Positions 44,422 through 45,465 of a stretch of DNA of 64,000 bases are shown in pieces. Made by a program: the position numbers and the translations under genes. The DNA comes from Lachnospiraceae bacterium (GTDB taxonomy: Bacteria > Bacillota > Clostridia > Lachnospirales > Lachnospiraceae), in NCBI GenBank assembly GCA_024698705.1, contig JAILQX010000046.1, forward strand, positions 1 through 64,000, read 5' to 3'. The notes below the pieces were generated by a model, which saw nothing but the letters and a program-made list of their open reading frames with translations, was not told where the DNA came from and made no database searches. Position 1 is the first letter of the stretch, and every line of letters begins with the position of its first letter.

Positions 44422-44652
44422 ATGGAATTTGAAAAACTCAAAAAAGTTATTGCGGAGGTTTTAAGCGTAGATCCCGACGAGATCACAATGGACACAACAT
44501 TTACGGATGATCTTGGGGCAGATTCGCTGGATCTTTTCCAGATCGTCATGGGTATCGAGGAAGAATTTGATATTGAGATCGCACCTGAAAAGGCTGAGAA
44601 TATAACAACGGTTGAAGAAGCTGTTGAGCTTATCAAGAATGAGATAAATTAG
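44422..44652 (+). CDS. acpP: acyl carrier protein
   Basis: 76 aa; FTDDLGADSLDLFQIVMGIEEEFDIEI. Confidence 0.97.
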   Translation: MEFEKLKKVIAEVLSVDPDEITMDTTFTDDLGADSLDLFQIVMGIEEEFDIEIAPEKAENITTVEEAVELIKNEIN

Positions 44653-44661
44653 TTATTATAT

Positions 44662-44700
44662 GTCGAAAAAGCCCATTTAAAGGGCTTTTTCGACGTTTTA
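44662..44700 (+). terminator. terminator after acpP
   Basis: GTCGAAAAAGCCC-atttaaa-GGGCTTTTTCGAC; T-run within the 3' arm. Confidence 0.85.
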
Positions 44701-44704
44701 TGAC

Positions 44705-44755
44705 GTATATTTGTTTAACCAATATATGCGATATGTATTTGTTAAACAAATATAC
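44705..44755. repeat. perfect 15-bp inverted repeat upstream of rnc
   Basis: GTATATTTGTTTAAC - 21 nt - GTTAAACAAATATAC; spacer can pair further (8 bp, two G.U) after one mismatch. Confidence 0.9.
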
Positions 44756-44778
44756 TGCTTTTTATAAAAGGAGTATTT

Positions 44779-45465
44779 ATGCAAGTCAAATCGATAGATG
44801 ATCTTGAGAAGGTGATCGGTTATTCCTTCAAGGATAAATCCTTGATCAAGCGCGCTCTTACGCACAGTTCCTATGCTAACGAACAGAAGATCAACAAGAA
44901 CGGAGATTACGAGAGGCTGGAATTTCTGGGAGATGCCGTTCTTGAACTGGTATCAAGTGATTTCTTTTATCACAGATATGCCAATCTTGATGAAGGAAGT
45001 CTTACAAAGATGAGATCGGCCCATGTATGCGAACCAGCGTTAGCTTATTGTGCCAGGGAATTCGGTCTTGAGGATTATATCCTGCTCGGAAAGGGAGAGG
45101 ACAGAACAGGCGGAAGAAACAGGGATTCCATAATCTCGGATGTGTGTGAAGCCATCATAGGAGCAATGTACCTCGATGGCGGCATGGAAATAGCACACGG
45201 TTTCATTCACCGTTTCATACTCAATGACAGCGACAACAAGCTTTTGTTTTATGACAGCAAGAGCATCTTACAGGAAATGGTACAGGCCGATAATCACGAT
45301 ACGCTTACTTACAAGCTTGTGGATGAATCAGGACCCGATCATGATAAGGAATTCACGGTTGAAGTATATATAAGTGACAAATGTGAAGGAAGAGGAAAAG
45401 GCAAGACGAAAAAGAGTGCCGAACAGATGGCTGCATATGAGGCCATAAAGAAGCTTAAGGGATGA
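44779..45465 (+). CDS. rnc: ribonuclease III
   Basis: 228 aa; ERLEFLGDAVLELVSSDFFY, AIIGAMYLDGG, C-terminal dsRBD. Confidence 0.98.
   Translation: MQVKSIDDLEKVIGYSFKDKSLIKRALTHSSYANEQKINKNGDYERLEFLGDAVLELVSSDFFYHRYANLDEGSLTKMRSAHVCEPALAYCAREFGLEDYILLGKGEDRTGGRNRDSIISDVCEAIIGAMYLDGGMEIAHGFIHRFILNDSDNKLLFYDSKSILQEMVQADNHDTLTYKLVDESGPDHDKEFTVEVYISDKCEGRGKGKTKKSAEQMAAYEAIKKLKG

Follow-up and report, generated by a model that had tools for sequence, protein, structure and literature searches.

A conserved leader hairpin upstream of rnc in a clade of Lachnospiraceae and its possible role in RNase III autoregulation

The acpP-rnc intergenic region

The window, i.e. the whole 64-kb stretch of Lachnospiraceae DNA analyzed here, carries the gene order plsX-acpP-terminator-hairpin-rnc-smc. 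The features of the acpP-rnc region are as follows.

44422-44652, + strand: acpP (acyl carrier protein), upstream neighbour of rnc; ORF with a DSLD phosphopantetheine site
44662-44694, + strand: intrinsic terminator of acpP, GTCGAAAAAGCCC..GGGCTTTTTCGAC; 13-bp perfect inverted repeat
44705-44755, + strand: leader hairpin P1, 23 bp; from the fold, the repeat scan and homologues in four more species
44705-44719 and 44741-44755, + strand: arms of P1, with inner helix at 44721-44728 and 44732-44739 and loop at 44729-44731; from the fold
44752-44776, + strand: P2, predicted alternative stem over the ribosome-binding site; from folds, with an equivalent in all five carriers
44752-44756 with 44772-44776 and 44758-44762 with 44766-44770, + strand: pairings of P2; from predicted folds
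44766-44773, + strand: Shine-Dalgarno region of rnc, AAAAGGAG, sealed in P2; from sequence and folds
44779-45465, + strand: rnc (RNase III, ORF of 228 aa), presumed regulator and target

The arm GTATATTTGTTTAAC (44705-44719) is the exact reverse complement of GTTAAACAAATATAC (44741-44755), and the repeat stops 23 nt short of the rnc start codon (ATG at 44779). The RNA is predicted to form a stem of 15 pairs that is interrupted at pair 16 by a C-U mismatch and continues with 8 further pairs (two of them G-U) up to a CGA triloop, 23 pairs in total. This bears out the position and complementarity of the repeat reported in a first-pass annotation of this DNA, and the hairpin of about 23 bp folds just as it was drawn there, with its mismatch, G-U pairs and triloop. 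The predicted energy of the RNA from 44695 to 44785 is -26 kcal/mol (z = -5.0), with none of 200 shuffles equally stable. When the 64-kb window was scanned for perfect inverted repeats (arms of at least 13, spacer of at most 40), the 15-bp repeat was the longest, and the only other one to pass was at 44662-44694, in agreement with the annotation in assigning acpP a terminator of its own; ten Markov-shuffled windows contained no inverted repeat satisfying the same criteria. No Rfam family reached its gathering score anywhere in the 64-kb window.

A scan found no promoter-like site between the acpP terminator and rnc, consistent with the earlier impression that no strong promoter lies between terminator and repeat. 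The absence of a U-tract, also claimed at that stage, holds in part: a short run of five U (44759-44763) does begin 3 nt past the P1 stem in the genome of the window, but the terminator scan makes no call there and the run is missing in relatives.

Occurrence of leader hairpins before rnc

The pattern TTTGTTTARCYAAN{5,30}TAAACAAAT was searched in 20 genomes of the genus and in 395 others. It matched at one locus each in five of the 20 (G001, G012, G015, G019 and G000, the genome of the window), 19-26 nt before rnc in all five, and was absent from the 395 further genomes of Lachnospiraceae (other genera and species, sampled at one or two per genus). A covariance model recovered these five loci without any further convincing match, and over 51 rnc loci it detected no homologue outside the clade. 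In every carrier acpP precedes rnc, and comparable stems follow acpP in relatives. The RNase III tree places the five carriers together with G007, G009 and G014 in one supported clade of eight species, the three non-carriers being nested inside it, so that one gain and one loss, i.e. a single acquisition followed by loss in the three sisters, would suffice to explain the pattern. In these sisters the acpP-rnc gap is only 52 nt and holds the terminator alone.

Two other identities for the element were considered and rejected. A dispersed palindromic repeat (MITE) or mobile element is at odds with the single locus per carrier, and the eight exact pattern matches in IMG/VR that might suggest a phage origin were taken as chance, none of them having matching extended arms. 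Different structures occur at two other loci of the family. A genome of the same genus outside the carrier clade (G010, locus L015) has the hairpin AGCAATAGGAAGTC..ACTTACCTATTGCT between the acpP terminator and rnc, and a genome of another genus (G034, locus L024, ~1200-1410) has a very long imperfect inverted repeat ~90-100 nt before rnc, with a predicted -170 kcal/mol across ~310 nt, possibly representing a foldback element or an RNase III target of an extreme kind.

The Clostridia were sampled independently through 140 rnc neighbourhoods that exclude the carrier clade, and one hairpin finder was applied to the 108 rnc and 1216 other upstream regions on these stretches; rnc homologues were present in 108 of 108 Clostridia genomes searched. 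Stems of 16 bp or more that lie no further than 60 nt from the start and lack a terminator signature were found before 9/108 rnc genes vs. 14/1216 other genes (odds ratio 7.8, p = 4e-5), in counts that treat acpP terminators with a T-run inside the stem as terminators. The direction was the same at every threshold tried, and under stricter symmetric scoring the enrichment was weaker (17/108 vs. 76/1216, p = 0.001). When pairing was scored as on the opposite strand, 0/108 rnc and 8/1216 other regions qualified. The ratio of G-T to A-C oppositions was 31:9 in the rnc stems (lowest threshold), 232:47 in terminators of other genes and 100:64 in their non-terminator stems. Long sense-strand hairpins without a U-tract are thus about seven times commoner before rnc than before other genes, to which the acpP neighbour may contribute: among genes located after acpP, those other than rnc likewise show a raised hairpin rate (2/20 vs. 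8/68), and acpP may therefore account for part of the enrichment seen across the class. For rnc genes following another co-directional gene the figures were 3/34 vs. 15/812 (p = 0.03).

Hairpins of other kinds were noted at individual loci. Four class-level relatives (L189, L196, L206 and L214) have unrelated, G-U-rich hairpins of 20-25 bp ending 14-26 nt before rnc, the upstream gene being other than acpP in at least three. Three related Clostridia of Christensenella-like type (L082, L087 and L088) share a GC-rich hairpin of 16-18 bp, GCGTACGCACCG..CGGTGCGTAGGC, between acpP and rnc and 61-72 nt before the latter; it is conserved, lacks a U-tract and overlaps an alternative inverted repeat. 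At L174 a mismatch-free 29-bp hairpin (TGGAACGGGGGACGGTGG...) lies 198 nt upstream of where rnc is predicted to start; it looks like a dispersed palindromic repeat. Long non-terminator hairpins also precede 3/23 genes for beta-ketoacyl-ACP synthase (L109-L248), which often follow acpP, so the region following acpP may itself be prone to hairpins.

Conservation of P1 and a second stem over the ribosome-binding site

Between carrier lineages the 4-fold degenerate sites of rnc are ~0.3 identical, i.e. saturated, and the conservation of P1 in spite of this is taken to reflect selection. Invariant pairs make up 15 of 21 in the five carriers; 97% of cells are paired in P1, compared with 35-45% when it is slid. 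The helix measures 20-23 bp throughout (23 bp in G000, 20-21 bp in the four relatives), and the total length is 46, 46, 47, 48 or 51, the spacing of the arms varying by 5 bp. Most changes at the variable pairs preserve pairing, through G-U or two-sided substitutions: A-U/G-U at pair 3, U-A/U-G at pair 4, A-U/G-C at pair 14 (an A-C mismatch in two carriers), C-G/U-G at pair 16 (C-U in G000), U-G/C-G/U-A at pair 19 and A-U/U-G at pair 21. The sense strand outfolds the antisense strand in all five species and scores 71-80 bits under the covariance model, compared with 44-60 bits for the antisense. On the strength of its single copy per genome, its place beside rnc, the 20-23 bp helix, the sense bias and the variable spacer, an RNA-level leader hairpin dedicated to rnc is well supported.

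The first-pass annotation looked to relatives for covariation and named the keeping of primary sequence without compensatory change as evidence against its reading. Both are found, in different parts of the hairpin: two-sided changes are restricted to the inner helix, and the outer 13 pairs retain their primary sequence with just two G-U variants and no compensatory change. The covariation of P1 among the five sequences is no more than suggestive: 39-61 of 500 shuffles equal it, which falls short of significance. One base past the palindrome, the T after ATATAC, is invariant as well. To our knowledge no sequence requirement this strict exists for RNase III, which leaves the invariant core TTTGTTTA/TAAACAAA without an explanation from that enzyme; either the sequence itself is also recognised by something, or three strands impose constraints on one another.

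A third strand is suggested by the region that follows. In all five carriers the 3' foot of P1, AUAUACU, is complementary to the ribosome-binding site of rnc: in four it pairs with AGUAUAU of the ribosome-binding and start region, and in G000 AUACU pairs with AGUAU. The linker extends this stem (P2) to the Shine-Dalgarno sequence as CUUUU/AAAAG in G000, CCUU/AAGG in G012 and G015 and UCU/AGG in G001. P2, which is an addition to the earlier annotation, and the base of P1 exclude one another. In silico deletion of the 5' arm makes P2 the lowest-energy fold in five of five carriers, and the predicted mean opening of the ribosome-binding site drops from 0.42-0.66 to 0.25-0.37. With 40 nt of coding sequence included, all five carriers favour P1 over P2 by 3.5-4.6 kcal/mol, and uncut RNA is therefore expected to keep P1; for the leader alone the two states lie at most 4 kcal/mol apart and are near balance in two species. 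In G000 the Shine-Dalgarno sequence is predicted to be largely paired even with P1 intact.

The stability of P2, a stem spotted post hoc after viewing the folds and overlapping in its inner part a Shine-Dalgarno sequence that is constrained in any case, falls in the top 0.4-4% of 891 Clostridia ribosome-binding regions; the counts against GC-matched regions are 0/105, 0/374, 0/374, 3/489 and 0/192. The motif AGTAT occurs near the start in 3% of the 891 genes, in 5/5 carriers and in 0/3 sisters. The latter read GGAGC(T/A)TA(T/A)ATG, and both P1 and P2 are thus lost in them. As a general rule for Clostridia, pairing of the P2 type was rejected, since foot-to-site pairing in 12 other Clostridia rnc hairpins gave just two fairly stable stems.

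Regulatory interpretation and comparison with known RNase III systems

We give about an even chance to the reading that the element acts in cis, as a leader through which RNase III restrains its own synthesis from rnc mRNA, and is similar in kind to enterobacterial rncO but unrelated to it. Its occurrence beside rnc only points to autogenous control by the product of the locus, and such control is the simplest account because the gene always adjoining the element encodes an enzyme that cuts helices of this type. From the sequence features described above, the following order of events can be proposed. Transcripts reaching rnc would probably be supplied by read-through of the acpP terminator, and the uncut transcript would fold into a two-turn P1 of the size of an RNase III substrate, leaving the ribosome-binding site comparatively open. 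RNase III would then cut P1, giving a 3' product with a freed foot AUAUACU followed by CUUUU, CCUU or UCU, and this foot would pair with the Shine-Dalgarno and start region as P2, so that translation is blocked and RNase III synthesis falls. The cut rnc mRNA may also decay faster. Evidence against autoregulation comes from the three sister species, which manage without the element. Of the RNase III autoregulatory site originally proposed, the leader hairpin dedicated to rnc stands; cleavage and feedback we infer, and covariation of the outer arms is absent.

It is also conceivable, although unlikely, that P1 serves RNase III as a processing or insulator site and involves no feedback, the cut keeping highly expressed acpP apart from read-through RNA of rnc-smc or the hairpin stabilising the new 5' end of rnc mRNA. 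Its position between terminator and rnc in the plsX-acpP-rnc-smc run would suit such a role, as would the hairpins raised before other post-acpP genes (2/20). Nevertheless, P1 lies close to the rnc start and not to the acpP stop, its foot can pair with the ribosome-binding site of rnc in every carrier, and long hairpins persist 14-26 nt upstream of rnc in three Clostridia in which this gene does not follow acpP.

Control of rnc translation by a sequence-specific RNA-binding protein other than RNase III, shifting the balance between the mutually exclusive P1 and P2, seems to us quite unlikely. It would account for outer pairs that are near-invariant at saturating divergence, beyond the need of a nuclease reading shape, but no second target is present in the same genomes and the neighbouring genes plsX, acpP, smc and ftsY include no regulator.

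Only the two remaining alternatives are clearly disfavoured. The dimeric repressor that the first-pass annotation had offered as an alternative, binding the inverted arms as a DNA operator controlling rnc, is improbable: the arms are perfectly palindromic in G000 and the primary sequence is strongly conserved, but the 5-bp variation in spacing (total 46-51) amounts to about half a helical turn, no other site with at most one mismatch occurs above chance level, the interval between terminator and rnc has no promoter-like site, and departures from pairing on the sense strand tend to G-U rather than A-C, the antisense folding worse in all five species. A weak second terminator or attenuator governing read-through into rnc is highly improbable, since the five-U run 3 nt after the stem of G000 is missing in the four relatives, the scan makes no call and P1 has an A-U rich stem, in contrast to the acpP terminators in these genomes, which are GC-rich.

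The enterobacterial rncO element (rnc-era-recO) has an Rfam family, and the E. coli rnc leader, folded here, forms a long, branched stem that stops some tens of nt short of the ATG. In E. coli, RNase III cleaves a stem in its own 5' UTR (PMC3386247, PMC8708148) and this cleavage destabilises the mRNA (PMC8708148), whereas in S. aureus and Streptomyces the enzyme cuts its own mRNA within the coding region (PMC3386247, PMC8708148). In all three, feedback by RNase III on the mRNA that encodes it is established (PMC3386247, PMC8708148). In the S. aureus cspA 5' UTR, processing by RNase III raises translation (PMC3386247). Searches of the open-access literature brought up no description of an rnc leader in Clostridia.

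If the proposed reading is correct, the Lachnospiraceae leader would be an independent case of RNase III feedback with an outcome readable from sequence. More tentatively, and with some doubt on our part, it may represent an RNA switch thrown by a nuclease, with cleavage as the signal that turns translation off, and one of the unrelated rnc leader hairpins for RNase III that evolved many times over in Clostridia; recurrence of this kind would make convergent evolution of the loop directly testable. The element resembles E. coli rncO in having a long leader stem a few tens of nt before the ATG and in the negative feedback proposed for it. As the first-pass annotation had supposed, it would be an analogue and not a member of that family, having neither sequence relation nor Rfam match; P1 is simple and unbranched, lies downstream of acpP and is accompanied by a conserved second stem over the ribosome-binding site. 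With the rnc genes of S. aureus and Streptomyces it would share the cutting of its own mRNA, at a site in the leader instead of the coding region. With S. aureus cspA it would share an effect of leader cleavage on translation, but of opposite sign: there cleavage raises translation, whereas the strand freed here would, on the prediction, shut off the ribosome-binding site.
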